Positions 4,061 to 45,915 of a stretch of DNA of 64,000 nt are shown piece by piece. Position 1 is the first letter of the stretch; each line of letters starts with the position of its first letter. The position numbers and the translations under genes are program-made. The notes beneath the pieces are model-generated. The model ran no database searches and had not been told where the DNA came from. It saw nothing but the letters and a program-made list of their open reading frames with translations. The stretch is from an uncultured Pelagibacteraceae bacterium (GTDB lineage Bacteria; Pseudomonadota; Alphaproteobacteria; Pelagibacterales; Pelagibacteraceae), in NCBI GenBank assembly GCA_902529645.1, contig CABZXO010000003.1, positions 62,001 to 126,000 of the forward strand. The letters run 5' to 3'.

Positions 4061-4089
4061 TTGACTTAAATCATTTAACAGATACAAAT
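4061..4089 (+). promoter_or_regulatory. Sigma-70-type promoter for riboswitch-glcB
   Basis: TTGACT at 4061-4066 and TACAAA at 4083-4088 are separated by 16 bases and would place the transcript start near 4095, just at the first riboswitch base-paired element. The match to the housekeeping consensus is good for such an AT-rich genome. This is a prediction from spacing and position only. Confidence 0.6.
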
Positions 4090-4095
4090 TCATTA

Positions 4096-4236
4096 TCGGG
4101 AGAGACTATTTATAGCGCCGAAGGAGCAACCACCCCGGAAACTCTCAGGCAAAAGGACCGATTGAAGCATAACACTCTGGAAAGAGATTAATTTCCGCCG
4201 AAGGAGTAAAACTCTCAGGCAAAAATACAGATGGGG
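4096..4236 (+). promoter_or_regulatory. Tandem glycine riboswitch controlling malate synthase
   Basis: Two glycine aptamers lie in series. The first (about 4098-4160) has GCGCCGAAGGAGC and CTCTCAGGCAAAAGGACCG; the second (about 4174-4234) has GCCGAAGGAG and CTCTCAGGCAAAA. These are the hallmark conserved blocks of the gcvT/glycine riboswitch, repeated as a tandem pair. The element ends about ten bases before the glcB start, so the expression platform probably acts on the GGGG-containing ribosome binding region at 4233-4236. A glycine riboswitch in front of glcB rather than gcvT is a published SAR11 peculiarity linked to glycine/serine dependence in that group. Confidence 0.95.
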
Positions 4237-15709: not shown

Positions 15710-16677
15710 TGAATAATAAAAAATTTATTTCAACTGCTAAAGACGTAATTAATTTAGAAATTAAAGCACTTCAAAAATTAAAAAAAAATATTAACAAACC
15801 TTTCTGTGATGCGGTAAAAAAAATTGTAAAATGTCAGTCTAAAATAATATTATGTGGAGTTGGTAAAAGTGGATTAATTGCTTCGAAGATTTCTGCAACT
15901 CTAGCATCGGTTGGAACTCCATCTTTTAGTCTCGCTGCAAGTGAAGCCTCTCATGGAGACTTGGGTATGATTTCAAAAAAAGATATTTTAATACTGATAA
16001 GCTACTCAGGTAAAACGAACGAGTTAAAAAATATAATTCAATATGCTAATAGAAATAGAATATTTTTAATTGGTATAGTTTCAAAAAAAGATTCCCTTTT
16101 ATATAAAGCATCAGATATCAAACTTTTAATTCCTCAAGTGGATGAAGCAGGTGGTATAGTTCCTACAGCAAGTACAACTTCACAGCTTGCTTTAGGGGAT
16201 GCACTTGCGATTTCATCAATGAAGTTTAGAAAATTTGGAAAATTAGATTTTAAGAAATTACACCCAGCAGGAAGTCTTGGTGCTCAATTAAAAACTGTTG
16301 AAGATATAATGTTAACTGGGAGAAAAATTCCATTTGTAAGTGAAAACTTAAAAATGAAGAAAGCATTACAAATTTTAAGCAATAAAAAACTTGGTGTTTT
16401 AATTGTTAGAAGTAAAAAACAAAAAACCTTAGGAATAATTACAGACGGACAAATAAGAAGGTACAATGAAAAAAATTCAGATCTTCATGTAAAAAAAGTA
16501 GGTGAAATTATGACAAAAAATCCTATATGTGTTGATAAAAATATACTTGCTGCAAAAGCTCTTTCCATTATGAATAATAACAAAATTACCTCAGTATGCG
16601 TCTACGACAACAAGAAAAAGTTTAGAACTATAGGGATTTTACATATGCATAATATTTTGCAGTCAGATATTTCATAA
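15709..16677 (+). CDS. kdsD: D-arabinose 5-phosphate isomerase
   Basis: KdsD/KpsF interconverts ribulose 5-phosphate and arabinose 5-phosphate, the first step to Kdo. A SIS domain occupies roughly residues 30-180 (GVGKSGLIASKISATLASVGTP, HGDLGMISKKD, SYSGKTNEL) and two CBS repeats fill the rest (residues 200-322: DIMLTGRKIPFV..., EIMTKNPICVD...). The ATG at 15709 overlaps the RNase D stop; a longer reading is internal to that gene. It sits upstream of lptC-lptB, as in most Proteobacteria. Confidence 0.96.
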   Translation: MNNKKFISTAKDVINLEIKALQKLKKNINKPFCDAVKKIVKCQSKIILCGVGKSGLIASKISATLASVGTPSFSLAASEASHGDLGMISKKDILILISYSGKTNELKNIIQYANRNRIFLIGIVSKKDSLLYKASDIKLLIPQVDEAGGIVPTASTTSQLALGDALAISSMKFRKFGKLDFKKLHPAGSLGAQLKTVEDIMLTGRKIPFVSENLKMKKALQILSNKKLGVLIVRSKKQKTLGIITDGQIRRYNEKNSDLHVKKVGEIMTKNPICVDKNILAAKALSIMNNNKITSVCVYDNKKKFRTIGILHMHNILQSDIS

Positions 16678-17256
16678 ATGAACAAAAAATTATTTTTAAT
16701 TTTGAGTTTAGTATTTCTTATTATTATTTTAATTTTCATCTCTTTAAACAACCTAAAAAAAAAACAAAAAAAAACTGTTGTGAACGAAAAAAAAATAGAG
16801 GAAGAAATAATATACAATTCAAATATTATTAAAAATATAAAATATTCCTCAAAAGATTTAAAAGGAAATAAATATATAATATTAGCGGATGAAGGTGAAA
16901 TTGATTTAAATAATAGTGATATAATTTACTTAACGGGAGTGACTGCTAGGATTGAATTAAAAGATAAAAATGAAATAATAAACATCTCATCTGATTTTGG
17001 GAAATATAATAGCTTGAATTTTAATACTATTTTCTCAAAAAACGTAATTATAAATTACATAGACAATGAAATAACTAGTGAGTATTTAGATTATTCAATG
17101 ATAAAAAATAAAATAATAATCAGCAAAAATGTTATATATAAAAATCTTGAAAATATATTAAAAGCAGATGTAATTGAATTGGATACATTATCAAAAGATA
17201 CAAAAATATTTATGCATAGTACAAAACAACAAGTAATTATAAAGAGCATTAATTAA
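16678..17256 (+). CDS. lptC: LPS export protein LptC
   Basis: LptC is a single-pass inner-membrane protein that receives LPS from the LptBFG transporter. The first 25 residues hold a hydrophobic segment (LFLILSLVFLIIILIFISL) and the remainder is the periplasmic beta-jellyroll (Lpt/OstA) domain, recognisable from spaced beta-strand repeats rather than strict motifs. The call depends mainly on position between kdsD and lptB and on the N-terminal anchor. Normally lptA follows lptC; here the ATP-binding subunit starts 1 base after the stop and no lptA is present. Confidence 0.8.
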   Translation: MNKKLFLILSLVFLIIILIFISLNNLKKKQKKTVVNEKKIEEEIIYNSNIIKNIKYSSKDLKGNKYIILADEGEIDLNNSDIIYLTGVTARIELKDKNEIINISSDFGKYNSLNFNTIFSKNVIINYIDNEITSEYLDYSMIKNKIIISKNVIYKNLENILKADVIELDTLSKDTKIFMHSTKQQVIIKSIN

Positions 17257-17257
17257 C

Positions 17258-18034
17258 ATGGGGCTAATTAAAAAATTTCGAATTAAATCTTATAAAAGCC
17301 CTAAATCAATCATAGCTTTTGAAAATGTTACGCTATCTTATGGAAACAGAATAATTTTAGATAAAATAAATTTCAGAATAAATGAAGGTGAAATATTCGG
17401 AATGCTTGGTCCGAACGGAGTGGGCAAATCAACAATATTTAATTTAATAACAGGTTTAGTCAGTCCTGATCAAGGAAAGATTAAGTTAAATAATGTAGAT
17501 GTTGGTAAATACCCAATATACCTTAGAACAAAGGAATTCAAAATTGGCTATGTACCGCAATATGGTGGCTACTTTAATGACCTTACCTTGTATGAAAATA
17601 TGAAAGCAATAGCAGAAATTGTCATAAATGAGAAAAATTTAGAGGAAAATAAAATAAACAGTTTAATAAATAAATTTGAATTAGAAAGTCTAATTAATGT
17701 AAAGGCTAAATTTTTATCGGGTGGTCAAAAAAAAAAATTGGTTATAGCTCTATCGTTAATAAGTGATCCAAGAGTACTACTTCTTGATGAATGTTTTGCT
17801 GCTTTAGATGTTTTAACTATAAAAATGTTACAAGAAATAATTGTTAATCTTCAAAAAGAAAATAAAATTACAATCTGCATTTGTGACCATCAAGCAAGAG
17901 ATTTGTTGGCATGTGTAGATAGCGCCATGATATTGAATAATAGTAAAATTATTGCAGAAGGTAGCCCCTCTGATCTAGTAAATAATATTGATGCTAAAAG
18001 TGCTTATTTTGGAGATTCCTTCAAATTTAATTAA
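17258..18034 (+). CDS. lptB: LPS export ABC transporter ATP-binding protein LptB
   Basis: LptB powers LPS extraction from the inner membrane with LptF and LptG. The 258-aa protein has Walker A GPNGVGKST, Q-loop GYVPQYGGYFNDLTLYENM, the ABC signature LSGGQKKKLVIALSL, Walker B LLLDECFAALD and the H-switch ICDHQARDLL. The YFGDSF end matches LptB, whose tail often has Y-L-G. An N-terminal extension of about 18 basic residues precedes the first strand. The Walker B residues read DECFAALD, where Cys replaces the usual Pro in DEP. Confidence 0.93.
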   Translation: MGLIKKFRIKSYKSPKSIIAFENVTLSYGNRIILDKINFRINEGEIFGMLGPNGVGKSTIFNLITGLVSPDQGKIKLNNVDVGKYPIYLRTKEFKIGYVPQYGGYFNDLTLYENMKAIAEIVINEKNLEENKINSLINKFELESLINVKAKFLSGGQKKKLVIALSLISDPRVLLLDECFAALDVLTIKMLQEIIVNLQKENKITICICDHQARDLLACVDSAMILNNSKIIAEGSPSDLVNNIDAKSAYFGDSFKFN

Positions 18035-18040
18035 TAGTAC

Positions 18041-19363
18041 ATGTCAAAATCAATAAAAATTAATAATAAAATCAGTCAGTTTAATAAAACGATAAAAGTT
18101 AGCGGCGACAAAAGTATAAGCATAAGGTGGGTTTTGTTATCATCTTTAGCAAATGGTGTTTCTAAATCAAAAAATTTATTAATGTCTGAAGATGTTTTGG
18201 CAGCAATTAATGCAATTAAAGTTCTTGGCATAAAATCAACTATAAACAAAAATATATGTAAAATTTATGGAAAAGGAATAAATGGGTATACTTATAAAAA
18301 AAATCTCACTTTGGATGCAAAAAATTCAGGTACATTAGGTAGATTAATTCTTGGATTACTGATTAATAATACTAATCAATTAAAATTAATTGGAGACAAA
18401 AGTTTATCAAAAAGAGATTTTAAAAGAATTTCTGATCCTTTAAGTAAATTTGGTGCAAAATTTAAATTGTATAAAAAAAATAAATTACCTTTAGTGATAT
18501 CAGGTATAGAAAAACCAAAATCAATCAAATATTTTGAAAAAAAAGGATCCGCACAATGCAAAAGTGCCGTAATCTTTGCAGCTATGAGAGCTGAGGGCAC
18601 TACATTGATAAAAGCAAAAAAATCAAGAGATCACACTGAACTTTTATGTAAACATCTTAATCTGCCAATAAATATTAAATATAGAAAAAAATATGATGAA
18701 ATTAAAATTAAAAAAGTGAAAAAAATTAAAACATTAAATTATGATATTCCTTCAGATATAAGCTCGAGTGCATTTTTTATTGTTTTGACTGCTTTATCTA
18801 AAAATTCCGAACTTCTAATAAAAAAAGTAAACATAAATAAATCTAGGATAGGAATTATTGACATATTAAGAAAAATGGGTGTGAAAATAAAATTTCAAAA
18901 TAAAAAAAATTATAAAGGAGAACAAATTGCTGATATTAAAATTACAAGCGCAAGATCATTAAAACCAATTAATTGTCCAGAAAAATTTAATAGTGCTGCA
19001 ATTGATGAGTTTTTAGTAATTTTTTTAGTAGCTGCAAAAGCAAATGGGATATCCTATTTTAAAGGCTTGTCTGAATTAAATCAAAAAGAAAGCCCTAGGC
19101 TTAAATGGGGATCAAAAATTCTAAAAAAGATGGGAATTAAAAATATTGTTACTAAAAATTCAATAAAAATATTTGGTAATCCACATTTAAAAATAAAAAA
19201 TAAAATAATAATTAAAGATTTTCTAAGAGATCACAGGGTATTTATGACAAGTGTAATTGCAGCATTATCATTTGGTGGTTTTTGGACAATTCATGACAAA
19301 GACTCAATACAAACCTCATTTCCGAATTTCCTTAAGTTAATTAATAGTTTAAAAAAAAAATGA
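18041..19363 (+). CDS. aroA: 3-phosphoshikimate 1-carboxyvinyltransferase (EPSP synthase)
   Basis: AroA makes EPSP in the shikimate pathway. Motifs: KVSGDKSISIRWVLLSSLANG (shikimate-3-phosphate and PEP binding Lys/Ser), LDAKNSGTLGRL (the N-[AS]-G-T loop), GSAQCKSAVIFAAM (S-A-Q-x-K-S-A), ELNQKESPRL (usual E-L-R-x-K-E-S-D-R), and the terminal DHRVFMTSVIAAL. These favour the class II-like form found in alphaproteobacteria. The ESDR variant ESPR and high Lys/Asn content show lineage divergence. It overlaps cmk by 4 bases and shares the pathway with aroK-aroB at 58.3-59.9 kb and pheA. Confidence 0.94.
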   Translation: MSKSIKINNKISQFNKTIKVSGDKSISIRWVLLSSLANGVSKSKNLLMSEDVLAAINAIKVLGIKSTINKNICKIYGKGINGYTYKKNLTLDAKNSGTLGRLILGLLINNTNQLKLIGDKSLSKRDFKRISDPLSKFGAKFKLYKKNKLPLVISGIEKPKSIKYFEKKGSAQCKSAVIFAAMRAEGTTLIKAKKSRDHTELLCKHLNLPINIKYRKKYDEIKIKKVKKIKTLNYDIPSDISSSAFFIVLTALSKNSELLIKKVNINKSRIGIIDILRKMGVKIKFQNKKNYKGEQIADIKITSARSLKPINCPEKFNSAAIDEFLVIFLVAAKANGISYFKGLSELNQKESPRLKWGSKILKKMGIKNIVTKNSIKIFGNPHLKIKNKIIIKDFLRDHRVFMTSVIAALSFGGFWTIHDKDSIQTSFPNFLKLINSLKKK

Positions 19364-20016
19364 AAAAAAGAAAAAATATTTTAAAAATTGCCATAGACTC
19401 TCCTGCTGCTGCTGGTGCAGGTACTATAGGAAGGGCTATATCCAAACACTACAATCTATTTTATCTAGATACCGGAAAAATTTATAGATACATTGCCTAT
19501 CTAAAATTAAATTTTCCAAAAAAATTTAATAATAAATTTCTTAAATCTAAAATTTCATCATTAAATAAAAAAGATCTTTCAAATAAAAATTTATTAACTG
19601 ACGAAGTTGGCACACTGGCATCTTTGTTAGCAAAAATTAAAAGTATAAGAAAAATTGTGCACAAATTGCAATTAACTTTTGCTTACAACCCACCAAAAAA
19701 GTACAGAGGATCTTGTCTTGATGGTAGAGATATTACATATAAAATTGTACCAGATGCAGATTTTAAATTTTATATTACTGCAAATATAAAGATACGAGCT
19801 CAAAGAAGATTTAAGGAACTAAAAAATTTAAAAAAAAATATTTCTTATGGAGAAGTTCTAAAAAGTATTAAAAAACGTGATAAAAATGACCTGAATAGGA
19901 AAGTTTCTCCATTAAAGAAAACCAAAGATTCACTATTGATTAATACAACAAACCTTAATAAAAGGGCATGTTTTTTAAAAATTAAAAAAATAATAGACAG
20001 GAAATTAGACAAATAA
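19360..20016 (+). CDS. cmk: Cytidylate kinase with altered P-loop
   Basis: Cmk phosphorylates CMP and dCMP. The family is recognised from IAIDSPAAAGAGT, LDTGKIYRY (usual L-D-T-G-x-x-Y-R), CLDGRDITYKIVPDADFKFYITA and RDKNDLNRKVSPL. The P-loop normally reads D-G-P-x-x-[AS]-G-K-G-T; here the first Gly is Ser and the Walker A Lys is Ala, clear in the codons at 19419-19434. The rest of the active site appears intact and position between aroA and rpsA is the standard one, so this is the real cmk and not a duplicate. Confidence 0.92.
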   Translation: MKKRKNILKIAIDSPAAAGAGTIGRAISKHYNLFYLDTGKIYRYIAYLKLNFPKKFNNKFLKSKISSLNKKDLSNKNLLTDEVGTLASLLAKIKSIRKIVHKLQLTFAYNPPKKYRGSCLDGRDITYKIVPDADFKFYITANIKIRAQRRFKELKNLKKNISYGEVLKSIKKRDKNDLNRKVSPLKKTKDSLLINTTNLNKRACFLKIKKIIDRKLDK

Positions 20017-30038: not shown

Positions 30039-31130
30039 TTAATTTTTAAGCTGCCTATTTCGTTCAACAAATTTTTCCACGTTTTCAGTTTGTACAGCCT
30101 TCTCAACCTGCTCGGGATCTTTAATATTTTCTAAGGTTCTTGAAATTGATCTTGCATCCGTTCCAAATTTATCAACAACTCCCATAGCATCTTCTAATTT
30201 TTTTCTAAGAACTATAATGTTGTCAAAATGTTTAGAAAATCTTGTACTGATTGTTTTTAAATGATTATAAATTTCCGTTGCACCTTTTTGTACCTTCAAT
30301 GATTGAAATCCCATATGTAAAGACTGTAAGTAAGCAGAAAGAGTATTAGGTCCACATATTACAACTTTATATTTTTTCATTAACTCTTGAGTTAATAATT
30401 CTTTTGTACTCGGATCTTGGTATTCAGTTAACTCTTTGTACAAACTTTCTGTAGGAGCATACACAATTGCAAAATCAGTGGTTTTTGGTGGCACAATATA
30501 TTTTTCATTAACGCTTTTAGCTTTTGCTTTAAAAGCTGAGGCTAATTTTGCTCTAGCGTCTGCAACAGCCCTTTTGTCTTCCGCGTCATGACCATCGGTA
30601 ATTGCTTTAAATTTTTCTACTGGAAAATGACTATCGACAGGTACCAAAACATCTCCTTGGAGCTTAATTGCAAATTCTACATTTTCACTTGTATCCTCTT
30701 TCATTTTTACATTGGTCATGAATTGAGAAGCTGGCAGCAAATCTTTAATTAATGCATCTAAGCTAAATTCTGCAAGAGTTCCATATTTCTTAACCCCAGC
30801 TAAAATTTTAGTTATCCCCTCTTGGCTTTGATTTAATAGTTGAACTTGCTGATTAAAATTTCCAACTTTTTCTTCTACCTTAGTTAAGGTCTCGGTCATA
30901 TCTTTAGTTACCCCAGTTGATAATGCATTAAACGAGGTAGACATTGATCCTAGTGAAGTATTAATGGTTGAGTTAAGCGAGTCTTTTAAGGTAACAATCT
31001 CAGCTTTAAGATTAGCAATTTCCTCTAAATCTTTACTCTCCTCTTTAGGTTTTGATTTTATGTTTAAATAAAGAATTGCAACTGCAACTCCTAACAACAA
31101 TATTAAAATACTAAGCGATACTACATCCAT
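30039..31130 (-). CDS. rmuC: DNA recombination protein RmuC
   Basis: RmuC is a membrane-tethered protein with a predicted PD-(D/E)XK-type core that limits recombination at inverted repeats. Residues 1-24 are a transmembrane helix (VSLSILILLLGVAVAILYL), followed by a long coiled coil (about 30-110) and the RmuC domain: GTLAEFSLDALIKDLLP, VLVPVDSHFPVEKFKAI, DFAIVYAPTESLY and ICGPNTLSAYLQSLHMGFQSL. The 363-aa length is typical. It lies downstream of the small minus-strand genes and may share their transcript. Confidence 0.94.
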   Translation of the reverse strand: MDVVSLSILILLLGVAVAILYLNIKSKPKEESKDLEEIANLKAEIVTLKDSLNSTINTSLGSMSTSFNALSTGVTKDMTETLTKVEEKVGNFNQQVQLLNQSQEGITKILAGVKKYGTLAEFSLDALIKDLLPASQFMTNVKMKEDTSENVEFAIKLQGDVLVPVDSHFPVEKFKAITDGHDAEDKRAVADARAKLASAFKAKAKSVNEKYIVPPKTTDFAIVYAPTESLYKELTEYQDPSTKELLTQELMKKYKVVICGPNTLSAYLQSLHMGFQSLKVQKGATEIYNHLKTISTRFSKHFDNIIVLRKKLEDAMGVVDKFGTDARSISRTLENIKDPEQVEKAVQTENVEKFVERNRQLKN

Positions 31131-31162: not shown

Positions 31163-31369
31163 TCAATTTTTATTTTCTTTACCGTAATAAAATGTTCCTA
31201 TTCCATCACAACTTAAGCAAATAGTTTCTGGATATGTTTCAGTAAGCACTCCTAAACCTCCACACTCAAAACATTCACCTACAATTTCATTTTGATAGAT
31301 TTTGCCTTCTTCAATTATTCTCTTTTTAACGAAATATTCTGAAAAAATTATCACGTTACTTTTCTTCAT
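31163..31369 (-). CDS. Small DnaJ-type zinc-finger protein
   Basis: Not a named family. The 68-aa product has GECFECGGLGVLTETYPETICLSCDGIG: two C-x-x-C-x-G repeats, as in the zinc region of DnaJ, which points to metal binding and a possible role in protein or RNA contacts. The ATG at 31369 is preferred because GAGG is 6 bases upstream; an ATG two codons earlier sits directly on that GAGG. It overlaps the preceding gene by 14 bases and lies 32 bases before rmuC. Confidence 0.6.
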   Translation of the reverse strand: MKKSNVIIFSEYFVKKRIIEEGKIYQNEIVGECFECGGLGVLTETYPETICLSCDGIGTFYYGKENKN

Positions 31370-31649
31370 TTTCATCCTCTTGGTAGTCCAATTGGCTATA
31401 AATATAGTCAATTTCTATGGCATTTTTTTCCAAATCCTTAGCAACTCTTAAATTATGGAAAAAATTAATTAAATTTATTGGTAAAAGATAAATTGTTAAA
31501 AGAAATTTTCTAATTGGTCTCTTTCTATAATATTCCTCATTTACCTTGTTGGTAAGACTTTTAGACATCAAGTATAACTCTGTATCCCTTCTCCAATCTA
31601 GGCAGTACTCAAGTCTATCTTTTAATTTTTCTTTAAAAAAATAATTCAT
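31356..31649 (-). CDS. Small protein of unknown function with one hydrophobic segment
   Basis: I do not recognise this 97-aa protein. It has a basic, Arg/Lys/Tyr-rich first half, one hydrophobic stretch (about residues 48-66, FLLTIYLLPINLINFFH) and an acidic tail rich in Asp/Glu. Its ATG overlaps the stop of the gene before it (ATGA), implying coupled translation, and it overlaps the next by 14 bases. That tight packing supports its being real despite lack of homology. Confidence 0.5.
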   Translation of the reverse strand: MNYFFKEKLKDRLEYCLDWRRDTELYLMSKSLTNKVNEEYYRKRPIRKFLLTIYLLPINLINFFHNLRVAKDLEKNAIEIDYIYSQLDYQEDENEEK

Positions 31650-31825
31650 TGATATCTCACAATTTGTTTATAGCATTGAGGCTTTTCTGAGGATTTTCCA
31701 ATAATTTCTATTTTTCCATTTCGAATGTAATAGACCCAATAATAATTTTCTTTATTCTCTTCATCTATTACCTCTTCGATCCTAATCTCGGTTATTTTAT
31801 CAATTTCATTTTTTGTTTTTTTCAT
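31646..31825 (-). CDS. Small hypothetical protein downstream of tRNA-like element
   Basis: A 59-aa product starting MKKTKNEIDKITEIRI at ATG 31825. It is predicted to be mostly beta strand (ENYYWVYYIRNGKIEIIGKSSEKP), resembling small soluble beta-meander proteins, but no family is recognised. Upstream is a 7-bp hairpin (31842-31861) and an A-rich stretch without a Shine-Dalgarno. A longer reading of the frame would run back through the tRNA-like element and is rejected. Its stop overlaps the next start (ATGA). Confidence 0.5.
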   Translation of the reverse strand: MKKTKNEIDKITEIRIEEVIDEENKENYYWVYYIRNGKIEIIGKSSEKPQCYKQIVRYQ

Positions 31826-31883
31826 AAATATTTTTTTTGCAGGGAGAGGACTATCTCTCCCCACAAGACATAGTCGTCTATAA

Positions 31884-31968
31884 TGGTGCTCAAAACCAGA
31901 TTTGCACTGGTACCCACCGTAGTGGAACAAGCTTTACTTGTCGCGTCTGACTGTTCCGCCATTTGAGC
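31884..31968 (-). tRNA. Non-canonical Leu-type (class II) tRNA-like gene
   Basis: An 85-base cloverleaf reads on the minus strand: acceptor GCUCAAA/UUUGAGC, A73, encoded CCA; D-arm GCG/CGC in the Leu-like context UGGCGGAA...AGACGCG; a long variable arm CCAC-UACG-GUGG; T-stem ACCAG/CUGGU. Several features are abnormal. The anticodon arm is two bases short if folded ACAAG/CUUGU, or has a GUAAAGC loop with formal anticodon AAA; the D-loop lacks the GG pair; the T-loop is UGCAAAU. It is embedded between small genes on the same strand and followed by a 7-bp hairpin at 31842-31861. Either a decayed or repurposed tRNA; decoding is doubtful. Confidence 0.6.
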
Positions 31969-31985
31969 ATGTAAATTATTATTCA

Positions 31986-32084
31986 TTAAATTCCTAAAAT
32001 TAATTTCACTAAATAAAATATTCCAAATCCACATATTATTGCTAGAATTAGACTTGTTAATATCGACCAGATAAAACCAAACAT
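31986..32084 (-). CDS. Tiny single-pass membrane protein
   Basis: A 32-aa reading frame, MFGFIWSILTSLILAIICGFGIFYLVKLILGI, that is almost wholly hydrophobic and would form one transmembrane helix. It begins 5 bases after the stop of the zinc-ribbon gene on the same strand and ends 17 bases before the tRNA-like element. No family is recognised. The support is composition, spacing and strand only. Confidence 0.4.
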   Translation of the reverse strand: MFGFIWSILTSLILAIICGFGIFYLVKLILGI

Positions 32085-32089
32085 AAGAA

Positions 32090-32290
32090 TTAATTTTTTT
32101 GAAATCCTAAAATCATTAACTTTATAAATTCAGAAACTGGTTCTCCTAATCTTGCGGGTATTACAAATTCTTCGTTACATCTATCACATACTGAGTCTGT
32201 GACTTTCAAATTTAAAAGAGGTTGAGGGTTATTACCTATTCCTTCAATTTCATTATCACATATTGGATTTGAGCAGTATTTTTTTTTCAT
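32090..32290 (-). CDS. Small zinc-ribbon protein
   Basis: A 66-aa protein with two Cys pairs: YCSNPICDNE (C-x4-C) and SVCDRCNEEF (C-x-x-C), consistent with a small zinc ribbon, followed by a mildly hydrophobic tail. A good AGGAG precedes the ATG by 4-5 bases (32290 upstream). It is the first gene of the minus-strand cluster and is separated by about 150 bases from the inverted promoter-like motif at 32449-32459. Function unknown; nucleic-acid or protein binding is possible. Confidence 0.6.
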   Translation of the reverse strand: MKKKYCSNPICDNEIEGIGNNPQPLLNLKVTDSVCDRCNEEFVIPARLGEPVSEFIKLMILGFQKN

Positions 32291-32448: not shown

Positions 32449-32486
32449 TATACCCCGGACAATTTTCTATAACTATCCGGGGTATA
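32449..32486. repeat. Inverted pair of TCCGGGGTATA elements between divergent genes
   Basis: TATACCCCGGA (32449-32459) and TCCGGGGTATA (32476-32486) are perfect inverted copies separated by 16 bases. The TATA ends face outward. On each strand they sit where a -10 box would be: for the plus-strand gene at 32494 the TATAAA at 32483 would start transcription at or near the ATG; for the minus-strand cluster the start would fall near 32441. A third copy occurs at 33120. This is most simply a shared operator or extended promoter element. Confidence 0.7.
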
Positions 32487-32493
32487 AATAGGT

Positions 32494-33060
32494 ATGAATA
32501 AAATAATTTACCCACAAATAGGAAATGCTGCACAGCATGGTATTTTCCTTGCGCTAGCTAAAGAGAAAAATTTAAAAGATTCTATAGCTGAAGCTCAGAT
32601 GATGTTCAAATATAGTACAAGAAAAATAAGATCTAAGGAGTTAATCAATTGTTCTAAACAATTAGAGTCGATAATAAAAAGAGGTTATTTTGAATTTAGC
32701 AAACTAGGACAGATCGTAAATTATCAAAAAACAAAAAAAATAAATAACTTTAAGCTTAATTTTATAAATAATAACAAATGGTCTGTAATAAATAAAAAAG
32801 ATAAAAGACATATTAGATTTGATTTTGAGTTCATTCCTAATTCAAAAAAACTAAAAAATATTATTCTAGAATTAAAAGTAGTTTGGAATATCCCCACTAA
32901 AGTTCCAAAAAGGGTTCAAAAACAGTTAATCACATATTCTAAGAATTCTCGTAAAAGGTGTATTGTTTGTTTTTTAGTGGTTAAGAAATTTGGTAAAAAA
33001 ACAAATTTTATAAACACTCATCCTTATTGGTTTGAGATAAATACAAGAAAAGCCTCATAA
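32494..33060 (+). CDS. Hypothetical protein, possible PD-(D/E)XK nuclease fold
   Basis: A 188-aa basic protein with no clear family. The N-terminal ~70 residues are helical. The C-terminal half has the spacing of a PD-(D/E)XK core: HIRFDFEF (Asp about 109), then IILELKV (E-x-K, about 125-127), then VQKQLITYSK (Gln/Tyr) and a hydrophobic strand CIVCFLVV. These are weak signatures and need structure prediction. The start ATG lies only 8 bases after a TCCGGGGTATA element, so its mRNA may be leaderless. It is separated from the DruA-like cassette by 191 bases carrying a palindrome and another such element. Confidence 0.45.
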   Translation: MNKIIYPQIGNAAQHGIFLALAKEKNLKDSIAEAQMMFKYSTRKIRSKELINCSKQLESIIKRGYFEFSKLGQIVNYQKTKKINNFKLNFINNNKWSVINKKDKRHIRFDFEFIPNSKKLKNIILELKVVWNIPTKVPKRVQKQLITYSKNSRKRCIVCFLVVKKFGKKTNFINTHPYWFEINTRKAS

Positions 33061-33070
33061 TTTTAAACTA

Positions 33071-33084
33071 TTCCAACGTTGGAA
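33071..33084. promoter_or_regulatory. 14-bp perfect palindrome, candidate operator
   Basis: TTCCAACGTTGGAA is a perfect dyad lying 35 bases before the third TCCGGGGTATA element. A half-site-like TCCAACGT also occurs at about 32434, next to the inverted pair. With no loop it makes a poor RNA hairpin and has no U-tract, so a protein-binding site is likelier than a terminator. No regulator is known. Confidence 0.4.
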
Positions 33085-33119
33085 CTATTAAATAAGCATT
33101 GATTTTCCTTGATTTTTTA

Positions 33120-33130
33120 TCCGGGGTATA
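33120..33130 (+). promoter_or_regulatory. Third TCCGGGGTATA element, upstream of the defence-like cassette
   Basis: An exact copy of the 11-mer seen at 32476-32486; the match extends as TATCCGGGGTATAWATA. If TATATA at about 33127 is the -10, transcription would start near 33138, leaving a leader of about 114 bases before the ATG at 33252. It thus links this cassette to the two divergent transcripts at 32.45 kb. Confidence 0.65.
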
Positions 33131-33137
33131 TATATAT

Positions 33138-33251
33138 AACATAAATAAGTAAACCGCAGGTGGTTTGCGCAATAGGAGCCCTCGAGTTCCTAAAAGATGC
33201 GAATTGCACATGCCAAATTTCCTCGGTTGAGCCAATAACCAAGGAGGAAAA
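33138..33251 (+). promoter_or_regulatory. Structured 5' leader sequestering the Shine-Dalgarno
   Basis: This leader is far richer in G and C than its surroundings. It contains AAACC/GGTTT (33151-33155 with 33162-33166), an AGGA/TCCT hairpin around 33174-33191 and a possible GCAAT/ATTGC closure. Most telling, TTTCCTCGGTT (33218-33228) pairs with AACC (33237-33240) and GAGGAAA (33244-33250), hiding the very strong AAGGAGG site. Translation of the downstream gene is therefore expected to be off unless this hairpin opens. No known riboswitch class is recognised. Confidence 0.6.
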
Positions 33252-34004
33252 ATGGCAAATGTAAAGTGTAATGTTGCATCTGACTTAAATAATCTTAAGC
33301 CAGCAACAAACGATGAGTATAGTTCTTTAGTAGGAGAACTTTATACTAACCAAAAAAATGGTTTTGTTAATAACTGGGTAGGTAATCAAACCCGGGGAGT
33401 AAAAGGGATTAACGAAGCTGTAATTGCTGAACATAAGCGAGATGCTGAAGATGTTTTTTCATCAGCAATTTTATACATGTTGGAGAAGGCTTACGCCAAT
33501 TATAAAAAAGCAAGTAAGTCGAACAATCCAATATACTTATACAATCCTAATGGAAAAGGACTTGGTAAATTACCTTGTATAATTAAATACTTTTCCCAAG
33601 TTATACGAACTAAAGTTTATCACTTCTTTAGAGGCTGCAAAAGAATGGTTAATGCAGTTTCTTCTTACTTGGATGCTCTCAAGTCAGGTATTGATATGAG
33701 CATTTATGTAAGTGCTGATGAGCAAACTAAAAAAGCTTATAAAAAGGACGTCGAAGATGGAAAGTATAAGAAATCAGATGGTTCTTTATCTGACTGGATA
33801 AGAGAAAAATCTTTCCAATCTAATGAGGGATGCGATGTGCTTCCTAAGCCAGAGAATAGATCAAATAGTCCATATTTCAGTGTGGTCTTGCCTGATCAAG
33901 AAGCCCTTAACCCAGAAAATATCGTTATAGCAGCAGAGGAGAAATCCTCTGCTACTATTTATAATTTCCCAAAAATTAACCAAAGCTGTTTTATAGCTGC
34001 CTAA
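33252..34004 (+). CDS. Unknown protein, first gene of DruA-like cassette (weak sigma region 2 resemblance)
   Basis: I do not recognise this 250-aa protein with confidence. Residues about 60-130 (EHKRDAEDVFSSAILYMLEKAY ... KYFSQVIRTKVYHFFRGCKRM) have the look of sigma-70 region 2: an A-E-D-V-x-x-x-[AT] helix, then a helix ending in basic residues. Residues 215-232 (DQEALNPENIVIAAEE) resemble the linker that precedes region 4 in ECF factors, but no region 4 follows. It is led by a strong, hairpin-buried AAGGAGG and lies 14 bases before the GHKL gene. Function is open; DNA or RNA polymerase binding is a guess. Confidence 0.55.
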   Translation: MANVKCNVASDLNNLKPATNDEYSSLVGELYTNQKNGFVNNWVGNQTRGVKGINEAVIAEHKRDAEDVFSSAILYMLEKAYANYKKASKSNNPIYLYNPNGKGLGKLPCIIKYFSQVIRTKVYHFFRGCKRMVNAVSSYLDALKSGIDMSIYVSADEQTKKAYKKDVEDGKYKKSDGSLSDWIREKSFQSNEGCDVLPKPENRSNSPYFSVVLPDQEALNPENIVIAAEEKSSATIYNFPKINQSCFIAA

Positions 34005-34018
34005 AATAAAGGAGAAAT

Positions 34019-35827
34019 ATGAGCCAAGTACTAAAAGAACAAATTGATTATGCTAAGAAAAATAATAGTGATAAGTCATTTATTGATGCAAGCAATTTTT
34101 TAGAAAGTGAAAGAGAGTCAGGTTATAAAAATACAGTTTATGCATTATACGAATTAATTGATAATTCTTATGAAGCTCAAGCCTCTAAAATATTTATTAC
34201 TGCAAAAAATAAACCAGGTACAAACCACCCGAACCAAATCGCTGTAATTGATAATGGTGAAGGAATGGGAGTAGATGATGAAGGAAATGATTTTTTGTAC
34301 GAAGCTTGTAAAGTTGGAGGTACTCATAGAGAAAGTTCCAAAACTCCTTTAAAAAGAAAAGGATATGGAAGATTTGGTTTTGGTTTACCAAAATCATCTA
34401 TTAGTCAAACCAGATCATTTACTGTTTTTACCAAAGTTAAGGAGGATCAAAATTGGAGATCACTAAATGTTGATCTAGACGAATTAATTTCAAAAAATTC
34501 TACAGAATTAAATGAAATTAAAAAAATCTCCTCTGATGAACTTCCAGATTACATACGCGAATGTTTGAAAAATAATTTTTCAGAAGATAAATCAGGAACT
34601 ATTGTTGCATGGAATGATTGTGATCGAATGACATATAAAACTGAAGAGTCTCTTAAACAAAATTTAGGATGGCGAGTATCCATGGCTTACTGGAGAAATA
34701 TTAAATCTGGCTTTTCAGTAAATATATTGGGAGATTTTATAAAACCAATTGATCCTCTATTTTTAGACAAATCTTGTGAACATGTTGAAAATTGTGGGTC
34801 AAACAAATTAAAAGCAATTGAATATGAGTCTTGGAATTGGCCATTTAAGGTCAAGTCTGAGGGAAAAGAGGTTGTAATTAATGCAGTAGTAAGAGCTGCG
34901 AGATTTCCATTCAGATTCGGGAGTAAAGATATTTCCAAGGAGGCAAGAGGACAAAATGGAAATATAAGACAAAAAATTTTGAGAGAACATAATGGAATAC
35001 TTTTTTACAGAGAAGGAAGATACATTGATTGTATGAGACACGTGCCTTCGGAGGCAAAAAAAACTCACAGATTTCAGCCTTATGATCAAAATTATAAGAT
35101 TGAAGTTAATTTCCCAGCGTCTTTGGATGAACCCATGGGTGTTACAAATAACAAACAATTCGTAAATTTAAGATTTCCAACTTTACAAAGTGATGGTTTT
35201 GTTAAATTGATGGAAGAAGCAAATAACATGTATAACGATGTAAAAAAGTCAGAGTTAGATATAGAAGTGGCTTCCCTGTCAAAAGAGAACGCGGCTGCAC
35301 AGGCAATTGATGCAGCTAGTGATTTTTTTGAAAAAAATCAAACTGATCCCATTCAAGAACAAAAGAGGAAAAGACTAGCAGAACTTGCTGCTAAGAATCT
35401 TGATGATGTAATTAATTTAGAGGTTGAACGAAGAAAAAAGAAATTTGGTGAAGATGTAGATAAAGAAAAAGTAAAAGCAGAAATTACTCCTTTATATACT
35501 CCGAGTAAAACTGAATTTAAATTTGATAACCCTGGACCAAATGCACCTTTCTTTAGAGTTGTGCCAGTAGGAGGAAAAAGAGAATATTATATTAATCAAG
35601 ATCATAGTTTTTTTACAAAAATATGGATGAATCCAAGGTCAAACGAATTTATGCGTGAAAGTTTGAAACTAGTCATTGCAGCAATTGGAGATGAGTATGT
35701 TGGTGCAGTTGAAGATGGGAAAAGATGGTATAATTATGAGATGGTAGAATGGTCAAGAAATTTAAATAATAGCTCTGATCAATTTATCGAAAAATTTAAT
35801 TTAGATCGTAAAGAAGACGAAAGCTAG
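34019..35827 (+). CDS. GHKL-superfamily ATPase of a defence-like cassette
   Basis: A 602-aa protein with an N-terminal Bergerat-fold ATPase: N-box YELIDNSYEA (about 44-53), G1 box VIDNGEGM (about 76-83), and G2 lid GYGRFGFGLPKSSIS (about 115-129). This combination is found in MORC, MutL and Hsp90-like proteins rather than sensor kinases, as no phospho-acceptor domain is present. The middle (to about 400) resembles a transducer region with conserved Arg/Tyr clusters; residues 420-470 are charged helices. It is followed 10 bases later by the DruA-like gene. Likely an ATP-gated clamp or switch; partner and target are unknown. Confidence 0.8.
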   Translation: MSQVLKEQIDYAKKNNSDKSFIDASNFLESERESGYKNTVYALYELIDNSYEAQASKIFITAKNKPGTNHPNQIAVIDNGEGMGVDDEGNDFLYEACKVGGTHRESSKTPLKRKGYGRFGFGLPKSSISQTRSFTVFTKVKEDQNWRSLNVDLDELISKNSTELNEIKKISSDELPDYIRECLKNNFSEDKSGTIVAWNDCDRMTYKTEESLKQNLGWRVSMAYWRNIKSGFSVNILGDFIKPIDPLFLDKSCEHVENCGSNKLKAIEYESWNWPFKVKSEGKEVVINAVVRAARFPFRFGSKDISKEARGQNGNIRQKILREHNGILFYREGRYIDCMRHVPSEAKKTHRFQPYDQNYKIEVNFPASLDEPMGVTNNKQFVNLRFPTLQSDGFVKLMEEANNMYNDVKKSELDIEVASLSKENAAAQAIDAASDFFEKNQTDPIQEQKRKRLAELAAKNLDDVINLEVERRKKKFGEDVDKEKVKAEITPLYTPSKTEFKFDNPGPNAPFFRVVPVGGKREYYINQDHSFFTKIWMNPRSNEFMRESLKLVIAAIGDEYVGAVEDGKRWYNYEMVEWSRNLNNSSDQFIEKFNLDRKEDES

Positions 35828-35837
35828 ATTAATATTA

Positions 35838-37814
35838 ATGTCTGAGATTACTCCAGATATCAAATTAGAAGATCTTAATTTTATCAAAGATAAAGTTATT
35901 GAAAGTAAAGAAGACTCCTCTTTTGATTTGGTATCTGAGCTTAGATTAAAGAGTGAGCAACCAAGTACCACAACTGACTCTTTAAAATTCAGAACTTTTT
36001 GTAGCCTACTAGCTGATTTAATTGATTTAGGTTGGTCTATAGAAATTACTAGGAAAGGTTTTGATATATCTCCACCAAAATACATAAAGTCCAATGAAGC
36101 AAAAATTCAGGCTAGAAATTCTAATTGGAAAGCTGCTGAAAATGATATTAGCAATCTTCAAGATGCTACGTTTATAACAAAGTTAAGAAACCCTCCGGTA
36201 GGCTCTAAATTTAAATCTGTAGATTTATTAGTAGATAACGGAGAAGAGTTAAAAAAATTATTTGAAGATATAAACACCTTAAAAGATGAGGATAAAAAAG
36301 TTGATGCATTAAAAAAAATTATTAAGCCAGAAATTCAGCACTGTTTTTTGGATGAAACCTGTTCATATACTGGATTAAGATTAATAGATATTTGGAGATA
36401 TTTCAGACTGACATGGTCAATGCCATATCAAACATCTAATGCGAGAACTATGCCTTTTCTAGTTAGAAATGGTGCTAGACCCAATAAACCTGTGATTGGC
36501 ATATTTCAATTAGTAAATCCGTTTTTCAACAATACTGGAAGAAATGCATTTTTGTGCTGGGATAATTATGCAACAGCAGCTAATGAAATTAAAAATAAAA
36601 ATCTAACAGTAAATGAATTATCAGATGCATTTTTACAATCGATAGATAAATCATTAAAAGAGACAAGATATGATGACTTAGTAAGCGACATCAAACTTAT
36701 AAGAAAACCTGATCAAAAAATTATTTCAAAATTATCAAAACTAAGTGATCAATACAGGGTCCAAGAAAACGAAGAAGAAAAAACACAATTTAATAAAAAA
36801 ATAAAAATAAAAACTAGAAGAGAAGTGGAAACATCGCTTTCTAGATCAAATGAAAAAATGTACTTAAAAAAAAGGTCAAAAAGATTATCAAAACTTCTTT
36901 TTGCTAGAATGATTTTTAATGAGTATGGCCTTAAAAAAGATCCAAAAAGAGCACTAACTATAATGATGCAAATTGCGGACGGTCAAAGAGCAATGAATAT
37001 TGCATTAGAATATATGAGACAAAGTATTTATAGCACACAAGCAGCTGATCTAAATGTTTGTGGATCAATAGCTCCATATAATGAATTGTTGGGAGGAAAA
37101 TTAATTACATTACTTTCAACATCTAAAAATGTAATGGAAAAGTATGATGAAAGTTACAAAAAAGAAAAAAGTATTATATCTTCTGCAGTAGCTGGAAGAG
37201 ATATAATCAAGCCTTCTAAATTATTATTTTTAACAGTTTCTAGCTTATATGATATTGCAAGCAGTCAATATAATAGGCTTAAACTTTATAAAAAAGATTT
37301 TCCCAAACTAAAAACTGATTTAATATTTCACGAAGCAGGAACTACTGAAGGTATCGGAAGTTATCACATAAGCCAAAATACAAGCAATTTAATAAATGAA
37401 CTTACTGGAAAGGTGAGAAAATTTATGAAAAAAAGTATTTCTGGAAAAGGTCATAGTCATAAAATTAGAAAAATTATCATTGGCTTGAGAATTCTAAATA
37501 TAAAAGCTGATGATATAATGATGCACAACCAAAAAAGAAGGAACTATGTATTTTTTCATAAAAATAAAAAAAATATGATTAAGTATTTATATGGATTAAA
37601 AAAAGTTGAAAATTTTAATCATTGTAGTTCTGATCTAAGTATAACTGAAGCTTGGATAAAAAGATGGGTAATAAAAAGAATTTTAAGAAAAGAAAGTTTA
37701 GAAAAAATAGGAAAGTCTAATTATAAAACTTTATCTTCTCTTTTTGAAAATGTGGTAAAAGAATATGCAAATGAAGAGGAAAATTTCAACTTATTCTCAA
37801 ACATGAGTAATTGA
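35838..37814 (+). CDS. DUF4338 / Druantia DruA-like protein
   Basis: The 658-aa product has blocks typical of DUF4338: TGLRLIDIWRYFRLTW (about 178-193), the following NARTMPFLVRNGARPNKPVIGI, LNVCGSIAPYNELLGGKL (about 405-422), SSLYDIASSQYNRLKLY (about 468-484) and EAGTTEGIGSYHIS (about 499-512). DUF4338 is the DruA subunit of the Druantia anti-phage system; its chemistry is not well defined. An N-terminal region of about 170 residues and a basic C-terminal region surround the core. No DruE helicase, DruB-D or other Druantia partner is present; the neighbour is a GHKL ATPase. Confidence 0.75.
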   Translation: MSEITPDIKLEDLNFIKDKVIESKEDSSFDLVSELRLKSEQPSTTTDSLKFRTFCSLLADLIDLGWSIEITRKGFDISPPKYIKSNEAKIQARNSNWKAAENDISNLQDATFITKLRNPPVGSKFKSVDLLVDNGEELKKLFEDINTLKDEDKKVDALKKIIKPEIQHCFLDETCSYTGLRLIDIWRYFRLTWSMPYQTSNARTMPFLVRNGARPNKPVIGIFQLVNPFFNNTGRNAFLCWDNYATAANEIKNKNLTVNELSDAFLQSIDKSLKETRYDDLVSDIKLIRKPDQKIISKLSKLSDQYRVQENEEEKTQFNKKIKIKTRREVETSLSRSNEKMYLKKRSKRLSKLLFARMIFNEYGLKKDPKRALTIMMQIADGQRAMNIALEYMRQSIYSTQAADLNVCGSIAPYNELLGGKLITLLSTSKNVMEKYDESYKKEKSIISSAVAGRDIIKPSKLLFLTVSSLYDIASSQYNRLKLYKKDFPKLKTDLIFHEAGTTEGIGSYHISQNTSNLINELTGKVRKFMKKSISGKGHSHKIRKIIIGLRILNIKADDIMMHNQKRRNYVFFHKNKKNMIKYLYGLKKVENFNHCSSDLSITEAWIKRWVIKRILRKESLEKIGKSNYKTLSSLFENVVKEYANEEENFNLFSNMSN

Positions 37815-37816
37815 TT

Positions 37817-37942
37817 ATGAATACGTTTATAATATCACTGATGGTTATTTTTGGCATAATTGGCCTTTATGCAATATTAAGAAATTTAGATATTATCAAA
37901 ATAATTTTAATTTACTGGAAAGACTTAATTTTTAGAAAGTAA
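37817..37942 (+). CDS. Tiny membrane protein closing the cassette
   Basis: A 41-aa frame, beginning MNTFIISLMVIFGIIGLYAI and ending with a basic WKDLIFRK tail, starts 2 bases after the DruA-like stop. It has one hydrophobic helix and a positively charged C-terminus. It overlaps the convergent hisG end by 18 bases. No family is recognised. Small membrane proteins are common effectors or accessories in defence operons, but that role is only a suggestion. Confidence 0.45.
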   Translation: MNTFIISLMVIFGIIGLYAILRNLDIIKIILIYWKDLIFRK

Positions 37943-38617
37943 CTTTATTATTTTTCGAAGGCCCATTTTATTATTGGAAGACTTAGAAATCATCATACAA
38001 GCCTCTGATCTGAGTATCTCTCCATCTTTTAGAACACGAAGATTATTAGCTTTTAAAGTTTCTCCAGTAGATGTGATGTCTGTAATTATCTCCGAAGAAC
38101 CTGTAAAAGGATAAGCTTCAGTTGCACCTAAACTATCAATTAATTTAAATTGGGTAACACCCTTTGAAAACAAAAATTCCCTTGTTAAGTTTGGATATTT
38201 TGTTGCTACTCTTAATCTTTTCTTTTTCTTATCTTTAAATTCAAATGCAATTTCTTCTAAATCTGCAACTGTTTGCACATCTATCCATGGATCAGGAATT
38301 GCAACTACTAATGTGGCCTTTCCAAAATTATATCTTTTTAAAACATTAATTTTCTTTTGAGTATTTATTTCACTCTCTTTCAATAGATCAAAACCAGAAA
38401 AACCTATATCCAAAGATCCATCTCCGAGTCTTTCTATGATTTCTCTTGCATGAAGATATAAAATTTTAATATTTTTATATTGTTTTACTGACCCTAAAAG
38501 ATCTCTTTCTCCTCTTTCTGAAATAAGAGTTAATTTATTTTTTTTAAAAATATTTAAAACATCTTTTCTAAGTCTGCCTTTGCTTGGAATTCCAATATTT
38601 AAAATATTTTTTGTCAT
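37925..38617 (-). CDS. hisG: ATP phosphoribosyltransferase catalytic subunit, short form
   Basis: HisG begins histidine synthesis by joining ATP and PRPP. At 230 aa it is the short form, lacking the C-terminal feedback domain of the long form, and therefore needs HisZ. Visible motifs are LNIGIPSKGRLRKDV, DIGFSGFDLL, ATKYPNLTREF, and the PRPP-binding GATEAYPFTGSSEIITDITSTGETLKANNL. It shares a single base with the hisZ stop (38617), and hisZ is the next gene upstream, as expected for a hetero-octamer. Confidence 0.96.
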   Translation of the reverse strand: MTKNILNIGIPSKGRLRKDVLNIFKKNKLTLISERGERDLLGSVKQYKNIKILYLHAREIIERLGDGSLDIGFSGFDLLKESEINTQKKINVLKRYNFGKATLVVAIPDPWIDVQTVADLEEIAFEFKDKKKKRLRVATKYPNLTREFLFSKGVTQFKLIDSLGATEAYPFTGSSEIITDITSTGETLKANNLRVLKDGEILRSEACMMISKSSNNKMGLRKIIKLLSKN

Positions 38618-41644: not shown

Positions 41645-41719
41645 TGGTGGCTGAGGAAGGATTCGCACCTCCGACACAAGCCTTTTCAGGGCTCTGCTCT
41701 ACTCCTGAGCTACTCAGCC
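41645..41719 (-). tRNA. tRNA-Phe(GAA)
   Basis: A 75-base cloverleaf: acceptor GGCUGAG/CUCAGCC, D-arm UAGCUCAGGAGUAGAGCA, anticodon stem GAGCC/GGCUU with loop CUGAAAA (anticodon GAA), T-stem GGAGG/CCUUC with T-loop UGCGAAU, A73 and encoded CCA. The T-loop has G where pseudouridine 55 is usual. It begins 4 bases after the infA stop on the same strand, so it is probably cut from the infA transcript. Confidence 0.95.
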
Positions 41720-45841: not shown

Positions 45842-45915
45842 GCTCCTGTAGTTAAATGGTATAACAAGTCATTGGTAATGACTAGTTCCCTGGTCAGTAC
45901 AGGGTGGGAGCACCA
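45842..45915 (+). tRNA. tRNA-Thr(GGU)
   Basis: A 74-base cloverleaf with acceptor GCUCCUG/UGGGAGC (two G-U pairs), D-arm GUUAAAUGGUAUAAC, anticodon stem AGUCA/UGACU with loop UUGGUAA (anticodon GGU, threonine), T-stem CCCUG/CAGGG, A73 and CCA. The T-loop GUCAGUA keeps U55 and C56 but lacks U54 and A58, an unusual state. The D-arm is close to tRNA-Gly in form, but the anticodon and A73 suit Thr. The TVP38 gene ends 1 base away on the opposite strand. Confidence 0.85.

Follow-up and report, generated by a model that had tools for sequence, protein, structure and literature searches.

The window analysed here is a 64-kb stretch of the genome of an uncultured member of the Pelagibacteraceae (SAR11), for which a 1.29-Mb assembly, about 90% complete, is available. 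Between the core genes rmuC and hisG lies an island in which a run of small reverse-strand features, including a tRNA-like sequence, adjoins a divergent defence operon (Table 1). Since relatives lacking the island have nothing between hisG and rmuC, the tRNA-like belongs to the inserted island; a place in an ancestral rmuC–sbcB operon was rejected, as hisG lies directly next to rmuC in relatives. The divergent operon resembles a Druantia/MZA-like defence system, and no DruE-type helicase was seen within it. An operator-like sequence, TATCCGGGGTATAwATA, is repeated before p188 (32474–32490) and before p250 (33118–33134), and the leader between these two genes (33060–33251) is conserved in relatives and possibly structured. 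The zinc motifs of ZnF82 are of the DnaJ zinc-finger type, and the protein belongs to no known family. Elsewhere in the window, a glycine riboswitch (Rfam RF00504) was found at 4087–4170, well above threshold.

Table 1. Features described in the text and their positions in the 64-kb window.
Feature	Positions	Strand	Description	Basis or occurrence
rmuC	30039–31130	−	Core flank of the island	Adjoins hisG in relatives without the island
ZnF82	31163–31411	−	Small protein carrying two zinc motifs of CxxCxGxG type	Beside nearly all class A cassettes
s97	31356–31649	−	Accessory island gene	Beside most class A cassettes
s94	31646–31825	−	ORF of 59 codons from ATG; first cistron to follow the cassette here	
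Hairpin element	31837–31878	−	Conserved GACGACTATGTC, then 12-bp hairpin (31837–31866) with loop AUAGUC, and A-run	Alignment, covariation
tRNA-like	31884–31968	−	Leu-type class II tRNA-like RNA, 85 nt, encoded ACCA end	Fold, homologues, pairing
Anticodon arm	31927–31941	−	Invariant stem ACAAG/CTTGT, variable 5-nt loop (TAAAG here)	Column variation in 15 sequences
Micro-ORF	31986–32084	−	32-codon transmembrane micro-ORF, MFGFIWSILTSLILAIICGFGIFYLVKLILGI; 17 nt between its stop and the tRNA-like	pN/pS, length conservation, hydropathy
s66	32090–32290	−	Upstream ORF; stop 5 nt before the micro-ORF ATG	
Defence operon	32494–37814	+	Divergent; p188, p250, GHKL ATPase (MzaB/BbrUII-like), DruA-like protein	
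hisG	37925–38617	−	Other core flank of the island	
tRNA-Phe	41645–41719		Ordinary tRNA-Phe with A18G19 and G55	Same elbow in ordinary tRNAs at L011, L024, L124–L126

The tRNA-like sequence forms a complete class II cloverleaf with a 7-bp acceptor stem, a 3-bp D stem, a 4-bp variable arm and a 5-bp T stem, followed by A73 and an encoded CCA. The initial annotation had listed the acceptor, T-stem, long variable arm, A73 and CCA as intact, and re-reading of the sequence bears this out. The class II cloverleaf with a long variable arm and A73 is a feature of decoding tRNA-Leu, and the D-loop and the 2-nt joint after the variable stem are likewise of the Leu type. Ordinary SAR11 tRNA-Leu genes (UAA, CAA, UAG and GAG) share the class II fold, the D-loop pattern GRAA..AGACGC, A73 and the two-base joint, whereas they have a 7-nt loop with a Leu anticodon in place of the variable 5-nt loop and cassette context of the tRNA-like; the best identity between the two is about 60–70%. 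A73 is present in all copies of the tRNA-like, and A15/U48 and the elbow are kept. The general Rfam tRNA model gave no match to the element even at E ≤ 10, none of the 4227 Rfam models tested matched it above chance, and ARAGORN found no tmRNA at the locus. A 70-codon reading frame that crosses the element was rejected as a gene, as the frame is interrupted or missing in homologues and the changes track the stems.

The anticodon arm can be folded in two ways, and both are present in the sequence, as first proposed: an arm two bases short, or one that gives the anticodon AAA. In the former, five base pairs close a 5-nt loop (ACAAG-TAAAG-CTTGT); in the latter, G26·U44 and four further pairs enclose a 7-nt loop that reads AAA. 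ARAGORN selects the second fold, pairing G26 with U44 and opening the G-C pair that closes the 5-nt loop, and calls tRNA-Phe(aaa). Among 15 distinct class A sequences, none of the ten anticodon-stem columns and none of the six D-stem columns varies. All five columns of the anticodon loop vary, giving 10 different loops and a mean entropy of 1.11 bits, compared with 0–0.44 in other regions. Because of this variation, the “anticodon” reported by ARAGORN differs by genome, being Phe(aaa), Lys(ttt), Stop(tta) or Leu(tag) in homologues, and it is probable that genes of this kind are wrongly annotated as tRNA-Phe(AAA), Lys or suppressor tRNAs. The 7-nt loop with U33 and a conserved Leu anticodon that marks a decoding tRNA-Leu is absent.

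Ordinary Leu(taa), Leu(caa) and Leu(gag) genes are present in the source genome. Leu(tag) was not found there, probably because the assembly is incomplete; of six other genomes with the cassette that were searched, five have it, and all four ordinary tRNA-Leu occur in one complete relative that lacks the cassette. Ordinary Leu isoacceptors thus coexist with the tRNA-like. Together with the compensated stems (see below) and the short, drifting anticodon loop, this comparison of sequences strongly supports the view that the tRNA-like does not decode, as the initial annotation had suggested. Its further suggestion of a decoy for an anticodon nuclease is disfavoured, since the loop that such a nuclease reads is the sole part that is not conserved.

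The D-loop lacks GG and the T-loop (UGCAAAU) starts with UG, as was first observed; to count these changes as abnormalities, however, was misleading. A D-loop with A18-G19 combined with a T-loop with G55 is also found in the ordinary tRNA-Phe(GAA) and tRNA-Val(GAC) of both the source genome and the complete genome G012, and in the tRNA-Thr(GGU) of G012. Because it occurs in these ordinary tRNAs of the lineage, the A18/G55 elbow is no sign of decay. In the tRNA-Thr(GGU) at 45842 and in the genome's tRNA-Val(GAC), positions 54 and 58 are changed too. The placement of A18 in class A assumes a one-base shift of the D-loop. In class B, the locus G301 has G18G19 with UUC, and its close relatives L091 and L096 have A18G19 with UGC; the 18–55 contact seems to have been remade rather than lost. 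Since the stems covary and A18/G55 switches jointly with G18/U55 among these close relatives, the L-shape of the tRNA is selected.

Full-length or nearly full-length homologues of the tRNA-like were found by blastn in nine other genomes among 397 of the family, at 77–95% identity, and a covariance model of the element matched 8 of the 399 genomes in the genus. A class-wide spread was rejected, as the best matches of this model elsewhere in Alphaproteobacteria, at the same threshold, were ordinary tRNA-Leu with normal anticodons. A search pattern for the element 3′ of the tRNA-like matched 17 records in the GTDB species set, and every complete record of these also has the tRNA-like (locus L083 is truncated at one end); the related sequences come from records under Pelagibacteraceae (SAR11) names. 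The same Leu-type class II cloverleaf was recovered in 17 distinct sequences of Pelagibacteraceae, one of them from a contig labelled Micavibrio (L089/G1117). By these sequence searches, the tRNA-like is a sparse accessory feature of the Pelagibacteraceae plus this single contig. In the Micavibrio-labelled contig, the G+C content falls from ≈40% to ≈28% where the island starts (L155, about 16300–19844), which suggests either that the contig is chimeric or that the island moved horizontally between distantly related alphaproteobacteria. An origin of the tRNA-like from phages or plasmids was rejected: searches of phage records, IMG/VR patterns and plasmids yielded no match, the two IMG/VR hits obtained not being tRNAs.

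The stems of the tRNA-like are kept in these relatives, and the element is far removed from a chance cloverleaf. In the 15 distinct class A sequences, 99.7% of the stem cells are paired and four pairs are changed on both sides, and sliding the stem partners, as a control, destroyed the pairing signal. The acceptor, variable and T stems covary across the homologues; the class B acceptor stem is strongly different, with one mismatch. The argument that perfect stems speak against simple decay is thereby strengthened by compensatory changes. Random stem mutations, the signature expected of a pseudogene, were not seen, and the other fold chosen by the standard tool yields a genome-dependent “anticodon” rather than a normal tRNA.

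The tRNA-like lies in the middle of a cassette of ≈250 bp with a fixed order: the micro-ORF, a gap, the tRNA-like, GAYGACTATRTC, and a covarying 12-bp hairpin. The initial annotation had missed the upstream micro-ORF and the fact that the three parts travel together. In the 17 loci that were aligned, conservation begins at the micro-ORF ATG and stops after the hairpin, and the outside sequence is unrelated between locus groups. The gap between the micro-ORF stop and the tRNA-like is 12–17 nt in these loci, and the next start codon follows about 50–70 nt after the tRNA-like (18 loci; in G000 and L087, the spacing of about 60 is counted from the ATG and not from an earlier GTG), whichever gene comes next: s94, ZnF82, s97 or a PtuB-like HNH protein. 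Three independent entry points, namely the tRNA-like, the hairpin and the micro-ORF (7 of 8 strong matches), recover the same cassette. An obligate partnership of the tRNA-like with s94 and s97 was rejected, as both occur without it in G017 (locus L037).

The micro-ORF is 32 codons long in all 17 loci, and its mean pN/pS of 0.32 indicates purifying selection. Its product is strongly hydrophobic, with a mean hydropathy of about 2–2.6 over 19 residues; from this and its size, it is predicted to be a single-pass membrane protein, possibly toxic. The micropeptide matched no family in Pfam or PHROGs, and no known toxin family there. Clear relatives of the micro-ORF numbered eight in 297 genomes, seven of them beside a tRNA-like. 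The remaining one, in the complete genome G012 (L105, G012:C1:1112413-1112502), lacks both the tRNA-like and the hairpin, with another small ORF directly after it.

In the cassette alignment, the 12 pairs of the hairpin are 99.4% formed, and 6 of the 12 are changed on both sides. A hairpin just 3′ of the tRNA-like had been proposed initially; its presence stands, while its size of 7 bp is to be corrected to 12 bp including U-G wobbles, and the start codon said to lie shortly behind it is the ATG of s94. An intrinsic terminator was rejected, since the A-run follows on the transcribed strand, as was a pseudoknot between GACUAU and the loop, for which the 12-bp stem is too long given so short a linker.

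In most loci, the micro-ORF begins −1 to 28 nt from an upstream stop on the same strand, and the tRNA-like would therefore belong to a longer transcript; in this genome, the short distance from the s66 stop makes the cassette intercistronic. Five loci (G301, L082, L087, L091 and L096) have no ORF that runs directly into the micro-ORF, and co-transcription with an upstream gene is thus not general. The initial idea of a tRNA mimic in an mRNA leader is partly supported: judged by gene spacing, the element would lie inside an operon, between the micro-ORF and the next gene, ≈50–70 nt ahead of the start.

Cassettes were found at two chromosomal hotspots, hisG/rmuC and near groEL. The hisG/rmuC site in relatives is either empty or occupied by islands with differing defence-like cargo: DruA with a GHKL ATPase, other GHKL ATPase sets, or cytosine or adenine methyltransferases, the latter accompanied by Vsr-like nucleases. 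The class B cassettes near groEL precede the PtuB-like HNH protein (a weak family match), and in the Micavibrio-labelled contig, a GHKL ATPase again lies beside the cassette.

The tRNA-like is neither a normal nor a decayed tRNA but part of a gene-control or defence cassette, and comparison of the loci makes it almost certain that this cassette is a conserved, non-decoding unit of three parts. RNase P and RNase Z recognise the tRNA elbow (PMC4810234). Because the cassette often lies a few bases from an upstream stop and keeps the elbow and acceptor end, we infer that it may be cut out by tRNA enzymes, and the rigid cis spacing favours control of the two flanking messages. We tentatively prefer, as a plausible reading, an element for processing or expression control in cis inside the operon. 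RNase P and the tRNA 3′-end enzymes would recognise the acceptor, T-arm and elbow in the operon transcript and excise the tRNA-like. This would leave a micropeptide message that ends 12–17 nt past its stop without a protective 3′ structure, and a downstream message that begins with the hairpin as a 5′ stabiliser beside the start codon. The cassette would thereby set how much of a possibly toxic micropeptide is made relative to the downstream genes, and this balance could depend on the capacity for tRNA processing while a phage attacks; the released RNA, possibly leucylated, might be a by-product or have a role of its own. The solitary micro-ORF homologue in G012 speaks against the cis model.

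Control in cis does not require everything that is conserved. RNase P would need no invariant D and anticodon stems, Leu-type D-loop or A73, and there may therefore be a factor that recognises the entire tRNA body; the invariance of these stems and the Leu-type features would allow for a partner in trans. It is possible, if somewhat unlikely, that the excised tRNA-like, either carrying leucine or bound in uncharged form, works as a sponge, a sensor or an aminoacyl donor for LeuRS, EF-Tu, the CCA enzyme or a phage or host tRNA-binding factor, with the micropeptide as a membrane partner. Bacterial LeuRS needs no anticodon, and A73 in all copies, the Leu-type D-loop, the 2-nt joint, the retained A15/U48 and elbow, and the class A D and anticodon stems that stay invariant while other stems vary all suit such a role. 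However, a trans-acting RNA needs no rigid cis linkage to a micro-ORF and hairpin at fixed spacing, the divergent and mismatched class B acceptor stem fits it poorly, and a nuclease decoy should keep its anticodon. The tRNA-like may be a decoy for a tRNA-binding protein other than an anticodon nuclease.

The size and hydropathy of the micropeptide, the purifying selection on it, and its occurrence across several unrelated types of defence island also accord with a type I-like toxin–antitoxin or abortive infection system, in which the tRNA-like and hairpin restrain the message of a 32-aa toxin until a phage disturbs tRNA processing. We consider this unlikely: Pfam and PHROGs gave no known toxin family for the peptide, the toxicity is putative, and no antisense antitoxin was seen. 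The conserved sequence begins only at the micro-ORF ATG. Doubtful to a slightly greater degree is an anti-phage cassette in which RNase P, by cutting the tRNA mimic after the stop, would silence the message of a membrane-active micropeptide; phage-disturbed processing would leave the message uncut, so that the peptide stops the infected cell, and the same cut would tune the downstream defence genes.

tRNA genes are common integration sites, and the location in genomic islands and the unusual anticodon arm could point to a decaying tRNA-Leu pseudogene left as an attachment-site relic; the compensatory stem changes in 15 distinct sequences and the conservation of micro-ORF and hairpin alongside make this very improbable, and a search of the window for a further tRNA 3′ end and of the (incomplete) source genome for a tyrosine recombinase found neither. 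Scarcely credible is a working tRNA that decodes as Phe-AAA or Leu, for in spite of the ARAGORN call and the intact CCA and elbow, the assigned identity changes from Phe(aaa) to Lys(ttt), Stop(tta) or Leu(tag) by homologue, the 5-nt loop varies at every position, and ordinary Leu(taa, caa, gag) genes are present here and Leu(tag) in five other cassette genomes.

Type I toxin micropeptides of the Hok, TisB and Ibs class are hydrophobic, single-pass peptides of ≈30 aa whose messages contain RNA structure. The predicted micro-ORF product is alike in both respects, although in the SAR11 cassette a tRNA-like comes after the ORF, no antisense RNA was found and the toxicity is putative. MALAT1/mascRNA is an example of a tRNA-like element that recruits RNase P, and to our knowledge the known elements of this kind belong to eukaryotic long non-coding RNAs. 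They share with the SAR11 element a non-decoding tRNA fold just 3′ of another RNA unit, whereas the latter lies in a bacterial operon and its processing is putative. Such elements bring in RNase P, which matures the end of a longer RNA (PMC4810234). The nearest described case, by analogy, is tRNA-Other of Bacillus cereus, a pseudo-tRNA beside a genomic island that is not used in translation, is kept in several genomes of one group, was reported inside larger transcripts and has been proposed as a structural element of a larger regulatory RNA (PMC3399842). Compared by description, both are island-flanking tRNA-likes with a fold kept by selection and no role in translation (as inferred for the SAR11 element), whereas tRNA-Other has a Trp anticodon and no reported counterpart of the fixed membrane micro-ORF, hairpin and defence genes that accompany the SAR11 element. 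No equivalent element in SAR11 was found in the literature searched (open-licence papers), nor any described counterpart of a three-part cassette with a non-decoding tRNA body.

SAR11 is among the most abundant groups of ocean bacteria and has few accessory genes. Ordinary tRNAs of this lineage, with their paired A18/G55 elbow, also bear on how the contact between the D- and T-loops can be rebuilt. A selected tRNA body without an anticodon, tied to a membrane micropeptide and a hairpin in the defence islands of this group, is a use of tRNA structure for which we found no description, and the cassette offers a clean natural test of the function of the tRNA body apart from decoding.
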